A stretch of 64,000 bases of DNA from Longimicrobiales bacterium. Its GTDB lineage: Bacteria > Gemmatimonadota > Gemmatimonadetes > Longimicrobiales > Gaopeijiaceae. Of the stretch, positions 8,332 to 64,000 are shown in pieces (the stretch's first letter is position 1; every line of letters begins with the position of its first letter). The translations under genes and the position numbers were made by a program. The stretch is from positions 1 through 64,000 of the forward strand of contig JANQNV010000313.1 of the NCBI GenBank assembly GCA_028279425.1. The letters are read 5' to 3'. The notes beneath the pieces are model-generated. The model made no database searches and had not been told where the DNA came from. It saw nothing but the letters and a program-made list of their open reading frames with translations.

Positions 8332-9420
8332 TCAGTGTCCAGGACGCAGCCTCCCGCGCAAGAAGACGTTCGGTCTGAGGCCCGTTGGCTCACGGAAGTA
8401 GAGAAGGCCGTCGGCTGGATCGACCATGACGAGTGCCGGTACGTCGTCGATCCCCCAAAGTCGATCACCTCGCGGCCCAAGCCGAACCAGGCCGAGGGAA
8501 GTGTCGTCGCCCCGAGGCTTCACGATCACCACCAACCACCCACCGGCTGGAAGGCGAAATGCCTCGCCGGCCAGGGCAGCCGAAGCGAGCCAGTCTGAGA
8601 AGCCCTCTGGGTCTTCGCGACGATCGACGGGAGGTCCCGTATCGCGTAGTGCCTGTGAGTCGATTTCGAGCTCGTCGACGAGCTGCACGGTGCGACCGGT
8701 GACACCCGCCACCCAAATCGTGTCGAAGACGGGCCAGGTGATGGCCGTCGTTGCGCCGGGGTCCGAAGGCCCCGCTCCCTCCAGCGTCGCGACCGCCATG
8801 AGATTGTCTTCACGAATGGGGAGTGCGATGGCGGCATCAACTTCGGTCCGCGAGTCGAGGTCGATCAGGCGCACCAGGCGACCGTCATACTCGGTGGGGC
8901 TCTGGAAGCTGGGGCCGGTCACGACCACCATCAGCGAGTCCGAAACGGGACCCGCGCTCAAGACGTTTTGCACCGGCAATTGCCAGTCGTTGACGAGGCC
9001 GTTCACCTCGTGCCACTCGGTGAGGCGCCCGTCTGCGTCGAGCGCGTGGAGCGTTTGGCGACCGATGCGGAAGGCGGCCCGTAGCAGTCGGAACTCACCC
9101 GGCCCCTCTCCGCGTCGACCGAAGTGGACCTCAAGTCGTCCGGCTTCGCCATACAGCCGAAACTGGGCTGCCTGTGCATCGATCACGATGAACCCCCCGA
9201 GCGGATCGGACCTCAATTGGGGCCGCACGGCGAGACTGGACTCGGTCTCCTCCAGGACCAGGGGGTCCAACCACTCGATGACCGGGTCCAGCGCACCTGG
9301 ATCCCCTTGAGCCTGGGCGAGTGTGGGGACGACGAGGGCGATCGAGAGCACCAAAGCCCACGCTGCCCAGGCATACCTCCGCGCGATCCTCGCCTGCACC
9401 GGGGTCGTCCGCGTTCCCAT
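8332..9420 (-). CDS. Secreted 6-bladed beta-propeller protein (no lipobox)
   Basis: This 362-residue protein has a cleavable Sec signal (ARRYAWAAWALVLSIALVVPTLAQAQG) instead of a lipobox, so it is probably released rather than anchored. It keeps the propeller signature FGRRGEGPGEFRLL and alternating blade strands (GGFIVIDAQAAQFRLYGEAG) but lacks the DSAG motif of the lipidated paralogs. Its start lies 3 bp after the stop of the TIMP-like gene, so the two are cotranscribed. Its role is unknown. Confidence 0.82.
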   Translation of the reverse strand: MGTRTTPVQARIARRYAWAAWALVLSIALVVPTLAQAQGDPGALDPVIEWLDPLVLEETESSLAVRPQLRSDPLGGFIVIDAQAAQFRLYGEAGRLEVHFGRRGEGPGEFRLLRAAFRIGRQTLHALDADGRLTEWHEVNGLVNDWQLPVQNVLSAGPVSDSLMVVVTGPSFQSPTEYDGRLVRLIDLDSRTEVDAAIALPIREDNLMAVATLEGAGPSDPGATTAITWPVFDTIWVAGVTGRTVQLVDELEIDSQALRDTGPPVDRREDPEGFSDWLASAALAGEAFRLPAGGWLVVIVKPRGDDTSLGLVRLGPRGDRLWGIDDVPALVMVDPADGLLYFREPTGLRPNVFLRGRLRPGH

Positions 9421-9423
9421 GCG

Positions 9424-10200
9424 TCAGCGCCGGCCTTCATCCAAGGTGAAGCGCACATCGAGACCCGTCAGATGGCGCAGTGAGCCGCAGCGCTGGGCGC
9501 TCTCTTCGCAGCGGACCCCGACATAAAACGTGGACGCCCATCCGTGGCGCCAGTATGCGCGGCCCGCGTAGATACCGGGCGGTAAGTGAAGGCGACCTCG
9601 GCCCGACGGCCCACGCGGCACCCAGCTGTCGCCCGCGAGTTCGACGCGCTGAACCCCGGCGGGGAAGCCCGACAGGTCAACGGGCAGTGACTCCTCCATG
9701 TTCGTCGGCCTCCGCGAGGGAGGCGTGAGCCCCTCCACAGCGGATTCCTCGGGTGGAGGAGCGATCCAGCCGGGACGCCCAAGGTCAGTCAGGTGGTCGA
9801 GGGTACTGGGGTAGCTCAGGCTCAGCGCGATGTCGCACCGCTCGGTCTGTAGGACTGCCCCATCGCTCGTCGCGAACACGAGGTAGCGCCCCCCCGCCTG
9901 GTACTGGGCACACGGTGCGTTCAACCCGACGATGAGTGTGACGGGGCCCGGGGCCGGGTCGCGCCACGAGGCCTCCGGCAGCGAGACGACCCGCTGCCGC
10001 CCGGGGCCGTCGTATCCCTCGCCGCTGTCTTCCCACAAGACCGTGGCGGCGAAGATCGCCTCGCGCTCGAGCAGAGGTGTGGGGGCGAACACCTGCTCGC
10101 CCGCGACGGACGCGGCCACCACACAGGTGCACGCCACCAACGGTGCGGGCACTAGGAGTGCCGCCCCAAGGACGACGCCGAACCCGGTCTTGCGGATCAT
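9424..10200 (-). CDS. Exported protein with N-terminal CxC, NTR/TIMP-like
   Basis: This 258-residue protein has a signal peptide ending at PLVA and a mature N-terminus CTCVVA (C24, C26). A CxC immediately after the signal, followed by an OB-fold-like first half (AIFAATVLWEDS, PVTLIVGLNAPC, GGRYLVFAT), resembles NTR/TIMP-type secreted domains. The lipobox reading (LVAC) is also possible, which would make it a lipoprotein. The second half (from about 140) is a separate beta-rich region with two further cysteines (VRCEESAQRCGSL). Its start overlaps the stop of a 37-codon ORF by ATGA. Function unknown. Confidence 0.6.
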   Translation of the reverse strand: MIRKTGFGVVLGAALLVPAPLVACTCVVAASVAGEQVFAPTPLLEREAIFAATVLWEDSGEGYDGPGRQRVVSLPEASWRDPAPGPVTLIVGLNAPCAQYQAGGRYLVFATSDGAVLQTERCDIALSLSYPSTLDHLTDLGRPGWIAPPPEESAVEGLTPPSRRPTNMEESLPVDLSGFPAGVQRVELAGDSWVPRGPSGRGRLHLPPGIYAGRAYWRHGWASTFYVGVRCEESAQRCGSLRHLTGLDVRFTLDEGRR

Positions 10201-10319: not shown

Positions 10320-10685
10320 CTATCCGCTGGCCTTCGGGCCATCGAAACCCAGGCGGAGTAGATACCCGAAGAAGCCGTCCGACCATTGGATCGTCACGGA
10401 GTCCACCGCCATGGTGTGCCACACTGCGATGCGATAGTCCCCCCACGACAGCTGGGGGCGCACGAGGAGGCGGCCTTCCTCCGGGAATTCGGCACCTCTC
10501 TCGCCGAGGAGACGCAGGGTGTCCGGGAGTTGATCGCCAGCTTGCTCGAATGGGGGATCCCACGACGCCTCGTGGAGCGTGTAGCACCCGATGAAGCGGG
10601 TCGTGTCCGGGCTCTCCTGCGCGGAGAGGGGGAAGGTGACGCCGAGCATCGCTACGATCAGGGAGGCTTGGCAGCGCGGACTCAT
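10320..10685 (-). CDS. Small secreted protein of unknown function
   Basis: This protein of 121 residues has a signal peptide (SPRCQASLIVAMLGVTFPLSAQ) and a beta-rich mature part (RFIGCYTLHEASWDPPF, GRLLVRPQLSWGDYRIAVWHTMAVDSVTIQWSDGFFGYLLRLGF in pieces). The ATG at 10685 shares its A with the TGA stop of the upstream gene, so the two are translationally coupled; a GTG one codon earlier (10688) is possible. I do not recognise the family. Its position between the carboxypeptidase-regulatory-like gene and the NTR-like gene suggests a shared envelope role. Confidence 0.7.
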   Translation of the reverse strand: MSPRCQASLIVAMLGVTFPLSAQESPDTTRFIGCYTLHEASWDPPFEQAGDQLPDTLRLLGERGAEFPEEGRLLVRPQLSWGDYRIAVWHTMAVDSVTIQWSDGFFGYLLRLGFDGPKASG

Positions 10686-11875: not shown

Positions 11876-13060
11876 TCACGGTCCCCCGGCGGGCCCAAAC
11901 GGAATGACCTGGACGCGCTCGACGTCCAGCTCGTCTTTCACGACGGCGAGCAGCGACTCGGAGCTGATCTCGAGGATCCAGATTCCGCGTGGCAGTTCGA
12001 TGGCCGCGACCCGTTCTCCGCTCGCGTCGAAGACGTCCCACACCTCCGGGCCTTCGTGACCGGGTCGGATGAATCGCTTGGCCCAGACCCCACCGGAGAC
12101 TGAGGTGCGCAGGTCTTCGAGCACCGGAAACTCATCGGCAAAGCCCTGGGCGGCGACGATCTGCCGACGTCTGGGCCGAGACTCTTCCGGAGCGGATTCA
12201 ATCGACTCCTCCATGTAGAGGTCGATGTCTGCGGCCGAAACGGTTCGATCCCCGGCGGGCCAGCGGACGATCATCGACAGACTCCCGTCGGCATCGAATC
12301 GTCGAAGCTCCGGGTCACTCGCCAACCCCCACCAGAGCCCGTTCGCGGTTCCCACACCCATCGCCCGAAACCCGAAGACCGGCCCACCGACCATGCTGAC
12401 GGCTTCGAGCGGTCCCATCCGAGCCAGCGGCTGGCTCGGAAGCGAATCGAGGATCTCGCCCCCGGGCGAAACGCGAACGAAGGCCGTGTACATGAGCTCG
12501 AAGCCGACGTCGGGGATGTCGTACTGATCGCTCATGAAGATCACATCGCCGTTCTCGAGCATCGAAGCCGGTTCGGCGTTGAGGATCTCTCCGGGCACAT
12601 TGCGCACGTCGATCACGTCGCCGCTCTCCCGATCGAAGTCGGTGAAGCGTCGCAGCCTGGGGTCCCACACGCGAAGCGTGTCTCCGCGGGGATAGATGTG
12701 CCCGGGGTAGCCGAACTCGCCCGGTCCCTCTCCTGCCCCACCCATGCGGCGCTCGAACACGCCCTCGGCCGAGAAGACCCTGAGTTCGCGGCTTCCTCCG
12801 TCGGAGATCACGATCCGGCCATCGTCGAGCAGCCGGCCGAAGAACACGCCCGACAACTCGTACTCCGGCTCGCCGGCCAGCACCCCGATCGAGAGCGTCG
12901 CATCGCCCGTGGTCCAAACCGCGGGTTGGGGCGCCGTGTTTTCGACGATCGTCGTGCCCGCACTGTCGGAGCGTAGAACGGTGTCCACCTCCGATGACTC
13001 ATCGGCGCAGGCGGCGCCGACGACGAGAAGGAGGATTGCGAGCGAAGGACGGAGGTTCAT
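11876..13060 (-). CDS. 6-bladed beta-propeller lipoprotein, first gene of operon
   Basis: This 394-residue lipoprotein starts at ATG 13060; the 47 codons upstream in frame have no signal features. Lipobox VGAAC (C18), then RSDSAGTTIVENTAP, the blade motif GGAGEGPGEFGYP and the closing strand KDELDVERVQVIPF. It heads the leftward run that ends at 4607. A copy of the recurrent promoter element lies at 13126-13155, about 60 bp before the start, supporting it as the first gene of the operon. Confidence 0.87.
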   Translation of the reverse strand: MNLRPSLAILLLVVGAACADESSEVDTVLRSDSAGTTIVENTAPQPAVWTTGDATLSIGVLAGEPEYELSGVFFGRLLDDGRIVISDGGSRELRVFSAEGVFERRMGGAGEGPGEFGYPGHIYPRGDTLRVWDPRLRRFTDFDRESGDVIDVRNVPGEILNAEPASMLENGDVIFMSDQYDIPDVGFELMYTAFVRVSPGGEILDSLPSQPLARMGPLEAVSMVGGPVFGFRAMGVGTANGLWWGLASDPELRRFDADGSLSMIVRWPAGDRTVSAADIDLYMEESIESAPEESRPRRRQIVAAQGFADEFPVLEDLRTSVSGGVWAKRFIRPGHEGPEVWDVFDASGERVAAIELPRGIWILEISSESLLAVVKDELDVERVQVIPFGPAGGP

Positions 13061-13125
13061 TGGGCGAGGTGCGTCACGAGTCGCGGCATGGCGGTCGGGG
13101 GTAAAACCAACTCGCTGGCGACTCC

Positions 13126-13155
13126 AGAGTAGAGCGACGCGCAGCGTTTCCGCCA
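13126..13155 (-). promoter_or_regulatory. Recurrent promoter-like element, copy 1
   Basis: On the minus strand, TGGCGG (13155-13150) is followed by an 18-bp spacer containing CTGCG, and then by TACTCT (13131-13126). It would start RNA near 13119 for the propeller operon starting at 13060. The same layout is repeated at other sites in this window. Confidence 0.65.
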
Positions 13156-13160
13156 GGTGG

Positions 13161-13640
13161 TCACTCCGAGCTCTGATCCGGCGACAGCAATCGCTCGACA
13201 ATCTCCCGGACGAGCGAGAGGGCCGACCGGATTTCGGTGGCGGCGATGTCCTCGGACAGAGCGTTGATCCACAGGGCCTGCGCGGCGTCCACCTCGGTCA
13301 TCGTGATCTCGCCCTTGCCGGTGAGGCCGACCAGTTTGGCGCGACGGTCCCGGGGATTGTCGATCAGCTCCAGAAACGAGTCCTTGACGAGCTCATTGAC
13401 GATCCGCTGCACACTCTGCCGGGTCAGTCCCATCTTGCGGGCAATCTGTGAAACCGTCAGCGAACGTCGTTCGAGATCGATTGCGCCCATGACCTGCCAA
13501 CGAGCGCCGGTGAGCCCCAGCGGTCTCGTCAACTCGTTGCCGGCGTCGACGAGAGCGCCGTTCAACCGGAACGTCTCGAGGACGAGCTCTGTGAGTGCGG
13601 CGCCGGCGTCCGTGCGCTGAGGCTTTCGTCGACGAGTCAT
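13161..13640 (-). CDS. MarR-family transcriptional regulator
   Basis: This 159-residue protein has the MarR layout: dimer helices at both ends, the winged helix SLTVSQIARKMGLTRQSVQRIVNELVKDSFLELI and the wing NPRDRRAKLVGLTGKG with the typical DxRxx(K/R)L pattern. The effector is unknown. ATG 13640 is taken as start; a GTG at 13658 is possible, and neither has a clear SD. It stands alone between the propeller operon and a CPBP protease. A partial copy of the recurrent element (TGGCGG and CTGCG, no TANTCT box) lies upstream at about 13714-13719. Confidence 0.85.
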   Translation of the reverse strand: MTRRRKPQRTDAGAALTELVLETFRLNGALVDAGNELTRPLGLTGARWQVMGAIDLERRSLTVSQIARKMGLTRQSVQRIVNELVKDSFLELIDNPRDRRAKLVGLTGKGEITMTEVDAAQALWINALSEDIAATEIRSALSLVREIVERLLSPDQSSE

Positions 13641-13738
13641 GTAGGGGCCGTTCAACACCGGACCGACCGACTCCGACGCTGCGGTGCAGCGCTGGGCCTG
13701 AGTCGCAGCGTTCCCGCCAGGGATCGAGAGCCCCTCGG

Positions 13739-33583: not shown

Positions 33584-33625
33584 GACGCGCTGGCCTACGC
33601 GGTTGGGGTGAAGGATTGAGCATCC

Positions 33626-33655
33626 AGAATAGGTCGGTTCGCAGGGTGCCCGCCA
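33626..33655 (-). promoter_or_regulatory. Recurrent promoter-like element, copy 5
   Basis: TGGCGG (33655-33650), 18-bp spacer with CTGCG, TATTCT (33631-33626), the copy closest to a sigma-70 -10 box. It serves the propeller starting at 33583. Confidence 0.65.
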
Positions 33656-33693
33656 GAACCGTCCGCAAGGCTCAAGGCCATCCAGGCCTCCCT

Positions 33694-48863: not shown

Positions 48864-48936
48864 CCGCAACGCCCCACAACGCCAGGCTTCCGGCTTCGAG
48901 CCTCGGGCGCTCCGTCGTCAACGGCTCCGGAGCGAT

Positions 48937-48975
48937 CAGGCGGCTCTGGTCTTTCAGCCCGGCTGGAGCCGCCTG
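48937..48975. terminator. Hairpin between convergent propeller genes
   Basis: Perfect 10-bp arms CAGGCGGCTC and GAGCCGCCTG enclose a 19-base loop. The hairpin lies over the 3' end of the minus-strand gene (stop at 48954) and 74 bp past the plus-strand stop. There is no U-run, so it is a weak or Rho-linked terminator candidate for both genes. Confidence 0.35.
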
Positions 48976-55551: not shown

Positions 55552-56607
55552 CTACCCTCCCGTGTCCACTCTCTGCCAGCGCGCGGCTGGACCTCGGCCA
55601 CGGACGACCACCGCCCCTTGGTCCCGAAGACCCCGCAGGACGTGGCGGATCATATCACGACTCACGCCTGGGCATTGCTCGGCGATTTCGGCCATGGTGA
55701 ACGGTCCGACGCGCTGCTCGACGGCGGCCTCGATCACCGCGGTCTTCGAGCCCTGCCCGGCGAGCATCCTCTGCGCTCGATCTCGGAACTCCGCGTATGC
55801 TCGGAGCAGGGTGCCCCAGAAGTACTCCAGCCATGGAAAGGGATCGTGTTCGCCCTCACGCCAGTTCGCGGAGCTGGCCTCCAGCGCCTCGTAGTAGGTG
55901 TCTCGGCTCTCTTCGATGACCCGCTCCAGGCTGATGTAGCGGCCCACGGTATAGCCGGCGCGATACAGCAACAGCAGCGTCAGGAGGCGAGCTGTGCGAC
56001 CGTTCCCATCAGCGAAGGGGTGGATGCACAGGAAGTCGAGGACCGTCAGCGGGATTACGAGCAGGCTCTCCCGCTGCTGGTCGATGGCCCGATCCCACAA
56101 CTGGACGAGTTCTCGCATGGCGCCAGGAGTGGCGACCGGAGACACGGGTCGGAAGCGCACGCGAGCGATGGAGCCGTCGGGGACGCGTTCCACGATGTCG
56201 TTCTGGGTGGACTTCCAGCGGCCTCCGCTGCCGGGCTGGTACCGGTACAGCATGCCGTGGAGCTGCCGGATCACGTTCGAGCTGAAGGACATGTGCTCTG
56301 CGGAGTCGTGCACGAGCGCGAGCGCATCCCGGTATCCGGCGATCTCTTGTTCGGATCGGTCGGTGGGTGCGGCGTCCCGAAGGACCACCTCCCGAAGGCG
56401 GCCTCGGGGCGCGACGATTCCCTCCAATCGATTCGATGACTCCGTCGACTCGATCAGCGCAATGGTGCGAAGCGTCTCCAGCGCCTCAGGGGTCTGACGG
56501 CTGAACAGCGCCTGTTCCCCCCGGTGCTCGCCCAACGCGCGAAGGGTAGATCCGTGATCCGGCGTCAGGCGGAGGCGATCGAGGAAGGTCGGGTTCAAGG
56601 ACCGCAT
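55552..56607 (-). CDS. Fic-family AMP-transferase with winged-helix C-terminus
   Basis: This 351-residue protein has the full Fic motif HPFADGNGRTAR (H196 to R207), so the catalytic histidine is present. An inhibitory helix motif, SNRLEG (S58, E62, G63), sits before it, which marks the class with N-terminal autoinhibition. Fic enzymes transfer AMP or related groups to protein hydroxyls. The C-terminal 70 residues (FTMAEIAEQCPGVSRDMIRHVLRGLRDQGAVV) form a winged helix that may bind DNA. It is read with the ADOP permease. Paired repeats lie upstream. Confidence 0.88.
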   Translation of the reverse strand: MRSLNPTFLDRLRLTPDHGSTLRALGEHRGEQALFSRQTPEALETLRTIALIESTESSNRLEGIVAPRGRLREVVLRDAAPTDRSEQEIAGYRDALALVHDSAEHMSFSSNVIRQLHGMLYRYQPGSGGRWKSTQNDIVERVPDGSIARVRFRPVSPVATPGAMRELVQLWDRAIDQQRESLLVIPLTVLDFLCIHPFADGNGRTARLLTLLLLYRAGYTVGRYISLERVIEESRDTYYEALEASSANWREGEHDPFPWLEYFWGTLLRAYAEFRDRAQRMLAGQGSKTAVIEAAVEQRVGPFTMAEIAEQCPGVSRDMIRHVLRGLRDQGAVVVRGRGPAARWQRVDTGG

Positions 56608-57896: not shown

Positions 57897-57972
57897 GGCC
57901 TGAACTCCCTGGTTCGTCGGGTTAGGTGCGGGGCTTCCGAAACGACGCCCCGGCTGCGCAGCTCACTCCGCC

Positions 57973-58002
57973 AGACTAGGGCGGTCCGCAGCGATCCCGC
58001 CG
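57973..58002 (-). promoter_or_regulatory. Recurrent promoter-like element, copy 8
   Basis: CGGCGG (58002-57997; one change from TGGCGG), 18-bp spacer with CTGCG, TAGTCT (57978-57973), for the propeller starting at 57896. Confidence 0.55.
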
Positions 58003-58012
58003 GAACCATCTG

Positions 58013-60715
58013 CTACTCCGGCTGCAACGCCTCCGCCGGCGCGATCCTGAGCCCCCGCCGGGCCGGCCCCAGCGTCGCGAGCAATCCCACGATCACGACC
58101 ACAGCCACGACGGTACCCACGAGGGGGACTTCGTAGGGAATGGCCTCCCCGTTCGAGCTTGCCTCGGCGGCGATCACCAGCCCCAGCCCCACGACCACCC
58201 CCGTGACCAACTGCAGAGCCGACCGACCGAAGGTCCCGCGAAGCAAGGCCCCCTGGGGCGCGCCCAGCGCGGATCGGATGCCGATGTCCCGTCGCCGCTG
58301 CGACACCGCGAACGACATGAGCGCGTACACGCCGGCGGCCGACAACAGGAGCACGCTCCCCGTGGTCAGCACCAGGATCAATGCAACGAGCCTCACCGCG
58401 ACGATGTTCTGGAGATACAGGTCTGACAGCCACATTGGTGCCACGCGCACAGTGGGATCCAGGTCAGACACGATCTCGCGGATGCGAGAGACGAGGTCGG
58501 GTTGCCGCACCCCCGTCCCCTCGACGTAGAGGGCCAGGCCAATCGCCGAGGTCTCGCGGATCCCCGCGAAGGCGTTCGGCTCGAGAAGGTCGGCGTCGAC
58601 GAGGTTGGCTTCCGGATTCTCGACGATCCCCACGACCTCGACGTCGCGCTCCTCACTCGTCGCCTCCCAGCCACGCGAGGCCGTGACGATGCGGACCCGC
58701 CGGCCCACGCCGTCCAGCCCGCCCAGGATCCGCTCCGCGAAGGTCCGATCGACGACGATGACGTCGGCCGCGCCCTCCTCCAGATCCGCGGTCCGCAACG
58801 GCCTGCCGGCGATGACGGGCAGGTCGAAGCTTCCGAAGAACTCCGGGTGCACCTGACTGATCCGCGCAGGCCGGGGATCGGCTGGGTCCGCACCCGGAGC
58901 GGGGGCTCGCACGAGGACCCGTCCGCTCCGGCCCGGCAGGTCGTAGGCCGGGAATGCGGCGGCGGCCTGGGGCAGCGCCTCGAGCTGGCGGAAGAGCTCC
59001 TCCCGTAGCTCGACGAGGCCTGTGGCTCCCGCCGCCGACACCGAGTCGCTGGCCTCGTCCGTCAGACCCTCGGGATCGATCGTTAGCCAGACGCGCAGGA
59101 ACCGGTCCACGTCGTAGGTCGGTCGATTCGTCGCGTAGGCGATCTCATCCCACGCCGTACCTGCCGCGATCGGGAGGACCGCTACGGTCACGGCGACCTG
59201 CACGACGATCAGCGCGGTCCACGTGCGACCCAGGCGAAGACCGGTGCCTCCGTGGAACTGGCGAAGACGGTCGTGCACCCGACTCCCCGTAGCCTGGAGC
59301 CCCGGAAGGACGCCCGAGACGACCGCGGTCAGGACCGCGAGTCCCCCCACATACACGAAGGCCATCGATGGGAGTCCCAGGTCCAGCCAGAAGGGGAGCT
59401 CACCCATCTCGGTCTCTGCGATCCGCTCGCCGAACCCGAGGCCGATGCGAGCGAGAATCAGCCCGGGAATCGCGGCCAGGAGAGCCAACACGAGGGACTC
59501 GCAGAAGAGCTGGCCGACCACCCGAGCCCGCGTCGCTCCGAGCGCCGTTCGCACGGCCATCTCGCCGCGGCGGGTGGCGGTCCTGGCGTAGACGAGTACG
59601 GCCACATTCAGAGCGACGATCAAAAGCACGACGACGATGAAGGCGTTCAGGGCCGCGAATTGCCAGAACATCCCCTCGCCCGCGCTTTCGTTCATGTCGA
59701 TCGGGCCCAGGATATAGGGCATGACCCGAGCCCGGAAGCTGCCATGTGTTTCGGGGGACTCCTCGGCCATCCGCCGACCGATCACGTCGAGCTCGGCCTT
59801 CGCGTCGGCGAGCTCGAAGCCGGGTGCGAGCCGTCCGGAGATGAAGATCGACGGGCCACTGCCGACGGGGTGGTCGATCGGACGCTCGCGGAGGGGCATC
59901 CAATAGCTGTGGTTCATGGGGAAGGCGAAGTCGGGCGGCATGACGCCCACCACCGTGTGAGGCACCCGCCCCACCCGGACCTCTCGACCCACGATGCTCG
60001 GATCGCCCGCGAAGCGCCCCTGCCAGACGTCGTGGCCGATGACCAGGACGTCAGGCGCACCCGGCTCCGAATCGGCGGACCCGATGGTGCGTCCGAGCTG
60101 GGGAGGGACACGGGCCAGCTCGAAGCCGGAGCCACTCATCTCTGCGATCGCCACCAACTCCGAGGGCCCGTCGCCGGTCCGAAGGTTGCGCTGTACGGTG
60201 CGCCATGCGGTCATGTCTTCGACCGTCCGCATCTGGTCTCGCCAGACGACGAAGTCGTGGAGGGATCGACGCTCCTCGTTGTTGCGCTCGAGATCCCAGT
60301 TCTCGAGGCCGACCATGCGGCCCCCTTCGTCCAGCGGAATGGTCGGATAGGCCATCTGGTAGATGAACGAGAAGAACCCGGCGGCCACGCCGATGGCGAC
60401 CGCGATTCCCACTCCACCGGCGAACGACAGGCCCGGGTACTTCAGGACCATCCGGGCCCCGAGCTTCACGTCGAGCCAGGAGAAGCCCCGGAAGGAGGAC
60501 CCGCTGCCCGACCACTCTTCCGCCCAGGCACCCGGTACGTTCAGGAGCAGCGACGCCGTGTGGCGTACGAGCCACGCGATGGCCGCCAACCCAGAGGTGG
60601 AGTCGGCCCGCCGAGCCACCGCATCGAGCAGGTGGACCCCGACCTCACGCCGGAATGCGGCCGGATAGAGCCAGAGAAGCCAGCGAGAGGAGGTCTTCGC
60701 GATCCAGCGGATCAC
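58013..60715 (-). CDS. ADOP-family duplicated ABC permease (cassette 4)
   Basis: This 900-residue permease starts at GTG 60715, which overlaps the padR stop as GTGA; the longer frame upstream (to 61075) lies antisense to nothing real and duplicates padR DNA. The prefix differs from cassettes 1-3 (LLWLYPAAFRREVGVHLLDAVARR). Then come the MacB/FtsX halves: SWLDVKLGARMVLKYPGLSF, IGHDVWQGRFAGDPSIVG, TVVGVMPPDFAFPMNHSYW, SQRRRDIGIRSALGAPQGA and RRGLRIAPAEALQPE. No ATPase nearby. Confidence 0.87.
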   Translation of the reverse strand: MIRWIAKTSSRWLLWLYPAAFRREVGVHLLDAVARRADSTSGLAAIAWLVRHTASLLLNVPGAWAEEWSGSGSSFRGFSWLDVKLGARMVLKYPGLSFAGGVGIAVAIGVAAGFFSFIYQMAYPTIPLDEGGRMVGLENWDLERNNEERRSLHDFVVWRDQMRTVEDMTAWRTVQRNLRTGDGPSELVAIAEMSGSGFELARVPPQLGRTIGSADSEPGAPDVLVIGHDVWQGRFAGDPSIVGREVRVGRVPHTVVGVMPPDFAFPMNHSYWMPLRERPIDHPVGSGPSIFISGRLAPGFELADAKAELDVIGRRMAEESPETHGSFRARVMPYILGPIDMNESAGEGMFWQFAALNAFIVVVLLIVALNVAVLVYARTATRRGEMAVRTALGATRARVVGQLFCESLVLALLAAIPGLILARIGLGFGERIAETEMGELPFWLDLGLPSMAFVYVGGLAVLTAVVSGVLPGLQATGSRVHDRLRQFHGGTGLRLGRTWTALIVVQVAVTVAVLPIAAGTAWDEIAYATNRPTYDVDRFLRVWLTIDPEGLTDEASDSVSAAGATGLVELREELFRQLEALPQAAAAFPAYDLPGRSGRVLVRAPAPGADPADPRPARISQVHPEFFGSFDLPVIAGRPLRTADLEEGAADVIVVDRTFAERILGGLDGVGRRVRIVTASRGWEATSEERDVEVVGIVENPEANLVDADLLEPNAFAGIRETSAIGLALYVEGTGVRQPDLVSRIREIVSDLDPTVRVAPMWLSDLYLQNIVAVRLVALILVLTTGSVLLLSAAGVYALMSFAVSQRRRDIGIRSALGAPQGALLRGTFGRSALQLVTGVVVGLGLVIAAEASSNGEAIPYEVPLVGTVVAVVVIVGLLATLGPARRGLRIAPAEALQPE

Positions 60716-61117: not shown

Positions 61118-61313
61118 GTTAACAACCTGGGGAGGAGGCGTCAATGGCGGACTTGGGGCACGCACGCGAGTTGCGGCTAATGGCGGCAGACGGCCAGTGG
61201 GTCAGGAAGGCAGCACGGCGCTTACCGTTCCGGGACCGGCTTGGGACGGAGTGCCGCGGCGCGGAGCCGGTAGCCTCTTGTCATGTCGCGCGCGAGCACT
61301 CGCCTCTGGCCCG

Positions 61314-63701
61314 CTACTCCTCGCCCCCTCTTAGCCGGAGGATGCGCTCCCTCTCCATCTTGAGAAGCGGCCCCTTCAACTCGAACAGCCTCTTTACGCT
61401 CTCTGCTATTCTCTTTCGCTTCCGGTCGAGAGTCTTCTTCACATCTCTCATGCGAGACCGCTCCGGTCCTTCGAGTCTGCGCTCGGTCTCCACCAGATGG
61501 ACGAGCATCATTAGGGCCGCCACCACTCGGGGATTGCGCGCTGAGGACACGGCATCGTTTAGCACCTCCAACCAGTCGTCGCAAGCCAAATGGATGTACA
61601 CACTCATCAGCAAGTAGCGTTCGTCCTCGGAGAGGTCGTCGCTCTTGGAAAGGTCTCGAAGCTGCTGGGCAAGCCATGGCACCCCGATGGTGACCATCAT
61701 CGTGTGTTCCGTTCCGACCAACGCGACCACCTCGCCGATATTTCCAAACTGAGCCGTCGCCTGCTCGGTGAGCGCCTGAGCCGATTCTCGGGCGGCGCCC
61801 ACCGAAGTCCTTAGGACTCGAAGACGGGCCCCGGCATCCGACGCGTCGCTGTTGGAGAGAATTCGCCCTAAGAGATAGGCGCCGTATAGGTAGTCGTCTC
61901 CCTCGGCCACCGAGAGTTGGGATCGCTCTTGTTGAACCAAACCGTCGAGGATCTCAAGAAGCCTTGAGTTGTGACGCCGAAGGCCGGCCGCGAAAACCAA
62001 CACCTGGCCCCAGCTTCGGTCGAAGAGGTGTTCCCGAAAGAACGCGTCGAAACCCTCGTGGTCGTTTGTGACCTTCCGTGCTGCGAAGAAGTCGCGAAAT
62101 GCAGTACGATAGAAGGACAGGTCGCGAGCATCACGGTCGAGGACTCCGGCATCGATCAATTCCTGGATAGCGACCTTGCTTCGCGCAGGTTCTCCAAGAC
62201 GTGCATATGTGTCGTCCATAATGCTCGTCGCATCATCTAGGGGAATAGTATCGAGCCCCTCCTGGACCATTCTGAAGGCCACGTCCGCTAGCAGGTCTTG
62301 TTTCCGCTGCCACTCAACCTCCATACGGACGCCCATCTCTTGGGCGTACCGTCCCAAGCGGATGACCATGTAGCGGTCGACAGCCTCGGCGGTGTTGGTT
62401 ACGAACTTGTGTTCCTTCTCATAGAGCATCACTCCGATTATCGCAGGAATGGGGCTCCCTGGGAGCTGAAGTGCGTCCTTCACCCGCTCGATCATCTTCG
62501 CCGCCACATCCTGAAACTCGACCGTGTCCCGGGTCCACTTTCGGACAAGTGCGCCTATCTGGGCCGTATCGAAGTCTTGGATAGTGTAGTGGTTTAGCTT
62601 GTCGAACAGGCCTGGTCGCAAGAACTCGTCGGGCCGCGCGGCGACAACTACTCGGGGGGGAGTCAAACCCCCAAGTGCGGCCTCGATCAGGTCCGCACAT
62701 CTCCGCTTCTGGTCCGCTACCGCGAGCTCGCTGAAGCCATCGACGAGGACAAGGTATCCAGAAAGGTCTCCTCCCTGCCGGGCCGCTACCGCTCGCTCGA
62801 CTGCGCCACCCTTGACCAATGCGTTGGCAATCGCGCCTCGCAGGCCATCTTCGCGAAGCAAATCCCGGGCTCGAACCAAGACCGGTAGCTGGCCGGCATC
62901 CTCAAGGTCGGGATCGCCCCGCAGGAGCCGTTCTGCGCGTTGGATCGCGAGCATTCGGAGGATAGCGGTCTTGCCCTCGTTCTGCTCGCCGATGACGACT
63001 GCGTCGCGCGCATCGTGCGTGAGTTTCAGAGCCGGCATCGAGTGGGAATGCTCGGCGGCAGGGGGCCCCTCGCTATCTGCAAGACTGAGGTCGAAGCGGC
63101 GCCTCAAAGATGGCTCGACGAAGACGTCCGATAGATTGCGCCGCTCGACCCCGGTCACCTGGTCCAACGCGTCGAGGGTCTCGCAACGAGCCTGCACATA
63201 CTTGAGGTAACCGAGTGCCTCCGTATCGGCGGTCTGCAGGATCTCAGGGAAGACCTTGTTTGCGCGCCGGATGATATCCGAGAGGTCCCAGAAATCGACC
63301 GGAATAGACGTAATGCGGCGGGCGATCTCCTCACGCGCGGTCCCGCTAATCCGGCCATTGGTGGCGACCACAAAGCGCTCAACGTGGTATTCGCCGGAGG
63401 GGTGGACGGCGACGGGGTGTCTAAACCCGCCCGCCAGGTCTAGCTGGTCAATGATTTGCTTCACGGTCCTGTTTTGGCTCCCGCCACCCGAGATGTCGCC
63501 GCGCTTTAGCTGCAGGCCATAGCAGGTCCGACGTATGTGGTCCACGGTGAAGAAGATCACGTCCAGTCCGCGCTCGTTGATGCCATGGACATCGGTTATC
63601 TGATCGAGGCCCGGTGTCCGTTCCAGGATGGGAATGACCACTTGCGTCCTAAGTTCCTGCTCGCTGAGGCTTGCCAACCGGTTCCAGACAGCGTTCTCCA
63701 T
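61314..63701 (-). CDS. Nuclease-NACHT (STAND) protein, probable anti-phage defence
   Basis: This 795-residue protein has an N-terminal PD-(D/E)xK-type nuclease region (about 20-145): ERGLDVIFF with D47, then YGLQLKRGD with Q64 and K66. The NACHT NTPase follows: Walker A GEQNEGKT (238-245), Walker B YLVLVDG (316-322) and RVVVAARPDEF. The C-terminal half (about 420-795) is helical with no recognised repeat, probably the sensor. Nuclease-NACHT proteins are a class of bacterial defence ATPases that sense phage proteins and then cut DNA. ATG 63701 is used (41 upstream in-frame codons look non-coding). Codon use is less GC-biased than in neighbours, with AGG, AGA and CTA codons, a sign of transfer. 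It stands alone. Confidence 0.75.
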   Translation of the reverse strand: MENAVWNRLASLSEQELRTQVVIPILERTPGLDQITDVHGINERGLDVIFFTVDHIRRTCYGLQLKRGDISGGGSQNRTVKQIIDQLDLAGGFRHPVAVHPSGEYHVERFVVATNGRISGTAREEIARRITSIPVDFWDLSDIIRRANKVFPEILQTADTEALGYLKYVQARCETLDALDQVTGVERRNLSDVFVEPSLRRRFDLSLADSEGPPAAEHSHSMPALKLTHDARDAVVIGEQNEGKTAILRMLAIQRAERLLRGDPDLEDAGQLPVLVRARDLLREDGLRGAIANALVKGGAVERAVAARQGGDLSGYLVLVDGFSELAVADQKRRCADLIEAALGGLTPPRVVVAARPDEFLRPGLFDKLNHYTIQDFDTAQIGALVRKWTRDTVEFQDVAAKMIERVKDALQLPGSPIPAIIGVMLYEKEHKFVTNTAEAVDRYMVIRLGRYAQEMGVRMEVEWQRKQDLLADVAFRMVQEGLDTIPLDDATSIMDDTYARLGEPARSKVAIQELIDAGVLDRDARDLSFYRTAFRDFFAARKVTNDHEGFDAFFREHLFDRSWGQVLVFAAGLRRHNSRLLEILDGLVQQERSQLSVAEGDDYLYGAYLLGRILSNSDASDAGARLRVLRTSVGAARESAQALTEQATAQFGNIGEVVALVGTEHTMMVTIGVPWLAQQLRDLSKSDDLSEDERYLLMSVYIHLACDDWLEVLNDAVSSARNPRVVAALMMLVHLVETERRLEGPERSRMRDVKKTLDRKRKRIAESVKRLFELKGPLLKMERERILRLRGGEE

Positions 63702-63824
63702 GAAAGTCTCTGGTCGGAGTGCGTAACGGGGCCCAGGCGAGGGACGTTCACGTCGCCGCCCGGCCCATAAAGAACGACCCACACAACGTGCAGGGGCTTC
63801 CGAAACGGCCTCGGACTGTACCAC

Positions 63825-64000
63825 TCATGTGGTCATGACTACGGCGGGTCGCAGTCGGTCCGCCACCCACTCGGTGAGTGGCTCGATGCCGAATGGGACG
63901 AAGCGCCGAAAGGGCCAGTACCGAAGGAAGGTGTGTACCGGAGCGGAGGGCAAGGCCCACCAGCGCCCGCAGCGCCAACCCGTCGCTACACGGCGTTGCA
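63825..64000 (-). CDS. Possible 3' end of a gene entering from beyond the window
   Basis: A minus-strand frame open to the window edge reads RWWALPSAPVHTFLRYWPFR and FGIEPLTEWVADRLRPAVVM before a TGA at 63827-63825, with coding-like third positions. It has no start in the window. It overlaps the recurrent element at 63836-63865, so the element could instead be part of this coding end. Family unknown. Confidence 0.3.
   Translation of the reverse strand, partial: QRRVATGWRCGRWWALPSAPVHTFLRYWPFRRFVPFGIEPLTEWVADRLRPAVVMTT
63836..63865 (-). promoter_or_regulatory. Recurrent promoter-like element, copy 9
   Basis: TGGCGG (63865-63860), 18-bp spacer with CTGCG, TAGTCA (63841-63836). It would start RNA near 63829, about 128 bases before the NACHT gene. 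It overlaps a possible coding end on the same strand. Confidence 0.5.

Follow-up and report, generated by a model that had tools for sequence, protein, structure and literature searches.

A predicted nuclease-NACHT receptor between degenerate attC-like sites in a Longimicrobiales genome

What might a gene that joins a nuclease-like region to a NACHT NTPase do in a Longimicrobiales bacterium, and in what kind of DNA does it lie? The gene is located near one end of the window, the whole 64,000-nucleotide stretch of DNA that was analysed, and its product is termed P0001 here. Judged by sequence comparison, P0001 is probably a single-protein NLR-like anti-phage receptor, and its gene accessory DNA within a relic array of gene cassettes. 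We describe the protein and its relatives, the surroundings of the gene and the way in which such a receptor could act.

Domains of the nuclease-NACHT protein

The gene, its domains and its catalytic residues were obtained directly from the window.

61314..63701, minus strand: nuclease-NACHT gene (protein P0001), an intact open reading frame of 795 amino acids with its ATG at 63701
63237..63701, minus strand: likely N-terminal PD-(D/E)xK (Mrr-like) nuclease domain, residues 1-155, with E14, D47, Q64-x-K66 and Q86
62526..62999, minus strand: NACHT NTPase, residues 235-392 (Pfam PF05729; NLRC4 profile match with E 1.9e-4)
62967-62990, minus strand: Walker A GEQNEGKT, residues 238-245, within the NACHT domain
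61890..62525, minus strand: NACHT-associated helical/winged-helix part, residues 393-604, common to bNACHT25-like proteins (hhalign)
61317..61889, minus strand: C-terminal helical region, residues 605-795, putative sensor, common to the Deinococcus relative

A longer reading from a GTG at 63824 is available, and the ATG at 63701 aligns with the first methionine of the relatives. The NACHT NTPase with a Walker A at residues 238-245, as proposed in an earlier note on this DNA, was recovered in the profile searches. In the Pfam search of the protein PF05729 was the sole match (E 1.9e-5; 25.0 bits, just below the cut-off of 26.7), and neither the N-terminus nor the C-terminal residues 605-795 matched a family. 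The six-frame search gave 28.6 bits for the same domain, above the cut-off, and P0001 is the only NACHT match that this search found in the genome. The Walker B VLVDG includes D321, and R356 is also listed for the NACHT part. Searching the PDB with the sequence of P0001 returned chance matches only.

For the N-terminus, the earlier note had named D47, Q64 and K66 as a PD-(D/E)xK-like region. All three residues are present, and they belong to the full pattern E, D, (D/E/Q)xK, Q of this nuclease superfamily, formed by E14, D47, Q64-x-K66 and Q86. An alignment of eight diverse N-terminal sequences, among them those of the bNACHT25/32 type, has E14, E43, G45, D47, D54, K66 and Q86 invariant. Q64 is shared by P0001 and its Deinococcus relative only; bNACHT25-like proteins have I or V at this position (I/VxK), and the QxK motif of P0001 is that of Mrr-type nucleases. 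The Mrr_cat profile matches the relatives, the Enterobacter kobei protein with 23.0 bits (above the cut-off of 21) and the Deinococcus protein with 18.5 bits (below it). The note had also suggested comparing predicted structures with Avs and bNACHT proteins. An AF2 model of the N-terminal domain (pLDDT 74.6) has an order of helices and strands that is compatible with PD-(D/E)xK, and Foldseek lists Avs4, AspBHI, MspJI, Card1, EndoMS and SduA among the best hits for it; these stand amid unrelated proteins and all E-values exceed 1e-3, so that the models lend the fold weak support. A PD-(D/E)xK fold of the N-terminus is likely. The full-length model is of low confidence (pLDDT 57.8), its best PDB matches being Avs4, NLRC4 and NOD2. 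The same nuclease-type N-terminus was seen in a gene of a relative in the phylum, G247 (L010 337-2007, minus strand), in which a NACHT domain was not found.

The codon usage had been described as foreign, and the numbers agree: the distance of the gene is 0.141, compared with 0.065-0.130 for 15 neighbours. Its GC content is 60.1% (66.9% for the window) and its GC3 0.70, where 0.75-0.89 is usual. The foreign composition is mild but real.

Relatives and kinship with tested defence proteins

A search of the phylum's 394 other genomes returned no relative of P0001 at E <= 1e-10. Elsewhere a single near-full-length relative was found, WP_264777828.1 (27% identity over 85% of the query), which is encoded on the plasmid pDAETH-1 of Deinococcus aetherius, near a gene for a GajB-like (Gabija-like) helicase. 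It has the domain order and the C-terminal region of P0001 and an Mrr_cat-like N-terminus; unlike the gene studied here, it sits on a large plasmid. Searches of plasmids with tblastn, and wider alignments, added more distant relatives, among them plasmid proteins from Pseudomonas putida, E. kobei and Malaciobacter. A search with the E. kobei protein found copies in E. coli, present in 18 of 5,426 genomes; the one inspected lies amid Rac-like prophage genes, and further copies were found on viral contigs. Scans of genome contigs and viral contigs with back-translated peptides returned nothing for P0001, alone or together with the Deinococcus protein, and neither protein had a match in phage records. 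Because no relative was found in the 394 other genomes, the sequence comparison indicates that the nuclease-NACHT gene is accessory and not housekeeping. The earlier note had considered that relatives might be housekeeping genes in conserved positions; this is ruled out by the same search, and the distant relatives are cargo of plasmids, a prophage and phage contigs.

The closest tested relatives are bNACHT25 and bNACHT32, single proteins that consist of a PD-(D/E)xK effector, a NACHT domain and an NCH1 domain (PMC12169576). Both lose phage protection and DNA degradation with the exchange D48A, and bNACHT25 requires the host protein DnaJ (PMC12169576). This domain order recurs in the proteins from P. 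putida and E. kobei, with NCH1 (PF22728) matches at 6.5e-37 or better; that they correspond to bNACHT25 is judged from architecture and residue number. In the alignment, D47 of P0001 falls on D48 of the E. kobei sequence. With hhalign, a profile of P0001 and the Deinococcus protein aligns to the bNACHT25-like (clade-6-like) family over residues 20-604 (531 columns, E 4e-34). Thus P0001 resembles bNACHT25 and bNACHT32 (clade 6) in being the product of a single gene, in its length of about 750-800 amino acids, in its N-terminal PD-(D/E)xK region with the equivalent aspartate and in its central NACHT domain. It differs from them in the last roughly 190 residues, which are unrelated, and in having QxK in place of I/VxK, and its identity to proteins of the bNACHT25/32 architecture is 17-20%. 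An NCH1-type C-terminus was ruled out for P0001: Pfam gives no PF22728 match, and hhalign against NCH1 proteins beyond residue 604 gives a probability of 0.2%.

The earlier note had placed the gene among anti-phage NTPases of the Avs and bNACHT types. The second half of this proposal holds, with the alignment at E 4e-34, whereas membership in Avs (AVAST) was rejected, since no Avs profile matches over the length of the protein. P0001 shares with Avs4 and other Avs proteins the STAND architecture, with an N-terminal nuclease and a C-terminal sensor that is putative in P0001, but it is about half as long, and its PADLOC Avs2 match is weak and partial (E 0.057, over just 61 residues). PDC-S60 (PADLOC, E 5e-6) and DS8_antiphage (NCBIfam NF053861, E 5.6e-5) also match weakly, in the NACHT region; the latter match amounts to 21 bits against a cut-off of 790, and nothing outside the NACHT domain and its neighbourhood was matched.

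P0001 might instead be a regulator of the NACHT/STAND kind whose nuclease-like domain is catalytically dead and which serves signalling or the defence against plasmids rather than phages. The C-terminal region is unlike NCH1, and several relatives are plasmid-borne, which would allow a defence against other elements. However, E14, D47, K66 and Q86 are all kept and the QxK is as in Mrr-type nucleases, and we regard a regulator of this kind as unlikely.

Surroundings of the gene: repeats, cassettes and a recombinase

The gene had been described as a lone one. The contig (C134) extends 6.3 kb beyond the window, and its extension corrects this description. Two attC-like sites directly bracket the gene, and two further genes and a tRNA gene follow on the same strand.

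61212..61284, minus strand: degenerate attC-like site downstream of the NACHT gene, 30 nt after its stop (nhmmer E 1.1e-6, model positions 21-95; left half only)
63780..63915, minus strand: degenerate attC-like site upstream of the NACHT gene, 79 nt from its ATG (nhmmer E 4.5e-17, model positions 46-178; right half conserved)
contig 64254-65291 (L023 4254-5291), same strand as the NACHT gene: gene of 345 amino acids with an HNH-like Cys/His pattern, seen by eye
contig 65583-66674 (L023 5583-6674), same strand as the NACHT gene: gene of 363 amino acids with an RxxxxH-like motif, possibly HEPN, seen by eye
contig 66942-67014, same strand as the NACHT gene: tRNA-Lys

Neither of the two neighbours has a Pfam or NCBIfam match; they are possible further defence genes. 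The tRNA was the only Rfam match in the extended region. On the tRNA-Lys side the contig is similar to that of a congener, G167 (about 73% over 2.5 kb), and this similarity ends about 40 nt past the tRNA; therefore, the NACHT, HNH-like and RxxxxH genes lie in a variable region. The 3' end of the tRNA-Lys was ruled out as an att repeat, as no direct copy is listed. A Fic/DOC-family gene (window 55552-56607, minus strand; PADLOC SoFic match, E 2.5e-37) is found 5 kb from the NACHT gene.

The assembly is fragmented (339 contigs, 89.8% complete, 5.8% contaminated), and a contig artefact or contamination had to be considered. It is very improbable: the flank past the tRNA-Lys matches the congener, and the repeat family of this contig was found almost only within the same taxonomic family.

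Copies of one repeat of about 165 nt follow each of the NACHT, HNH-like and RxxxxH genes, 18-38 nt past the stop, and the site 79 nt upstream of the NACHT ATG is a fourth copy. These four same-strand attC-type sites lie at 61.2-65.5 kb of the contig, with single-gene units between them; two are partial. The same repeat forms same-strand tandem arrays in three relatives (G069, G167 and G340). In an alignment of twenty sites over their whole length, the left ends read ..TAAC and the right ends CGTTR.., which resembles the R'' and R' boxes of attC. GrpB, PIN, Gp49/HTH and Phd genes are among the cassettes in the arrays of the relatives, the usual cargo of chromosomal integrons. One cassette gene in G069 (L064 7035-8636, minus strand; 534 amino acids) has a possible PD-(D/E)xK pattern (GWDF..QVK) and no Pfam match.

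An integron cassette carries the first bases past the crossover, and hence the left box of a site is expected to pair with the right box of the preceding site. In the arrays of the relatives the left end of a site is complementary to the preceding right end at 102 of the 104 positions compared, from 13 pairs of consecutive sites, where shuffling gave a mean of 75.7 and a maximum of 93 in 100,000. The 8-mers behind this count were chosen by hand and pairs with truncated or uncertain sites omitted, including the pair of the second and third full sites of G069, which has a partial site between them and matches at 5 of 8 only. Within a site the two ends match at just 5-7 of 8. For another site family, found in G116 and unrelated to the first, a script counted 66 of 80 (the highest of 50,000 shuffles reached 65), an uncorrected figure in which two left ends were wrongly picked. 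At the degenerate sites of the present contig the end-to-end complementarity is absent, as judged by eye.

Could the repeats be ordinary intergenic elements such as terminators or REP-like sequences, and the NACHT gene merely a single island gene beside tRNA-Lys? Single sites fold into hairpins no better than shuffled sequences (z -1.3 to +1.0), this genome has no integron integrase above the cut-off, and partial copies stand directly after ordinary genes in the window. But a terminator gives no reason for same-strand arrays in relatives with complementarity at 102 of 104 and, in G116, 66 of 80 positions, and we hold this explanation to be improbable. The alignment of the sites folds at -22.7 (column shuffles -3.8 +/- 2.4, a control that also scrambles base order). 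The partial copies in the window (57928-58015, minus strand, E 2e-12; 48868-48949, plus strand, E 2e-7; 33622-33679, minus strand, E 0.003) are either relics or a shared terminator-like sequence.

Since the sites of this contig are degenerate and their pairing is not kept, the NACHT gene is best called the cargo of a degenerate attC-type cassette array, and it may once have been mobile as a cassette. Chromosomal integrons and CALINs (the latter as defined in PMC9668308) have been described as stores of defence genes (Darracq 2025 and Kieffer 2025, as cited in PMC12409362). The present locus resembles them in its same-strand genes with a trailing repeat each, and the arrays of the relatives add attC-type ends, the signature of cassette closure and toxin-antitoxin cassettes. 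In contrast to them, the sites here are degenerate, the genome has no IntI above the cut-off, and the arrays of the relatives lie behind a recombinase without the IntI patch.

No integron integrase above the TIGR02249 cut-off (265) was found in this genome (G000), G069 or G167; the best match here, in a genome 89.8% complete, has 115.6 bits per segment and 207.9 bits for the whole protein. The genome of G069, 97% complete and in one contig, has at least 8 sites. Instead, in G069 and on another contig of this genome (C10) the first site is preceded, at a distance of about 450 nt, by a tyrosine recombinase gene; in G340 the distance is about 1.1 kb.

L079 (G000:C10) 8879-10000, plus strand: patchless recombinase; site at 10447-10625
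L060 (G069) 12352-13680, minus strand: patchless recombinase; sites from 11903 down

Its sequences and a split TIGR02249 match reveal that it is without the IntI-specific segment of about 40 residues, which has been described as necessary for integron recombination (PMC9668308). The recombinases of G000, G069 and G340 have an N-terminal extension that by eye resembles a HARP-type motif. Like these two loci, L082 (G340:C133) and L091 (G116:C1) have a patchless recombinase directly upstream of an attC-type array, in many cases where a contig ends, and in G116 an array of 14 matches begins about 0.9 kb past such a gene. Of 12 fetched recombinase loci, 8 end within about 730 nt after the gene, as expected before repeats. 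Among 395 genomes, 26 have the recombinase, including 5 of the 6 that carry this site family, an overlap that is inflated by shared ancestry. Counting against a link, some of these genomes also have a true IntI, and in G167 recombinase and array are on separate contigs. It is a tentative idea, and a rather doubtful one, that a patchless tyrosine recombinase of the IntI/Xer-like type, and not a classical integron integrase, moves the cassette arrays of this bacterial family, which would make the NACHT gene and its neighbours relics of a second kind of integron.

A possible mode of action

Defence activity, its trigger, oligomerisation and DNA cleavage are what we infer for P0001 as an anti-phage receptor. 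At rest, the NACHT module would keep P0001 inactive. The C-terminal helical region of about 190 residues might sense either a phage protein or a host factor that the infection perturbs. Nucleotide exchange at the Walker A could then lead to oligomerisation through the NACHT domains, and clustering would bring the N-terminal PD-(D/E)xK domains into an active state. The activated nuclease domains would cut DNA and in this way stop the infection, probably by killing the cell.

A receptor that combines a tested type of effector and switch with a different sensor would be a good test of how far the sensors of bacterial NLR proteins can be swapped. Lying within attC-type cassettes and far from Vibrio, a nuclease-NACHT receptor would also extend the view of integrons as stores of defence genes. 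If it is true that the patchless recombinase moves these cassettes, one could test directly whether the IntI-specific domain is required, as is currently accepted.
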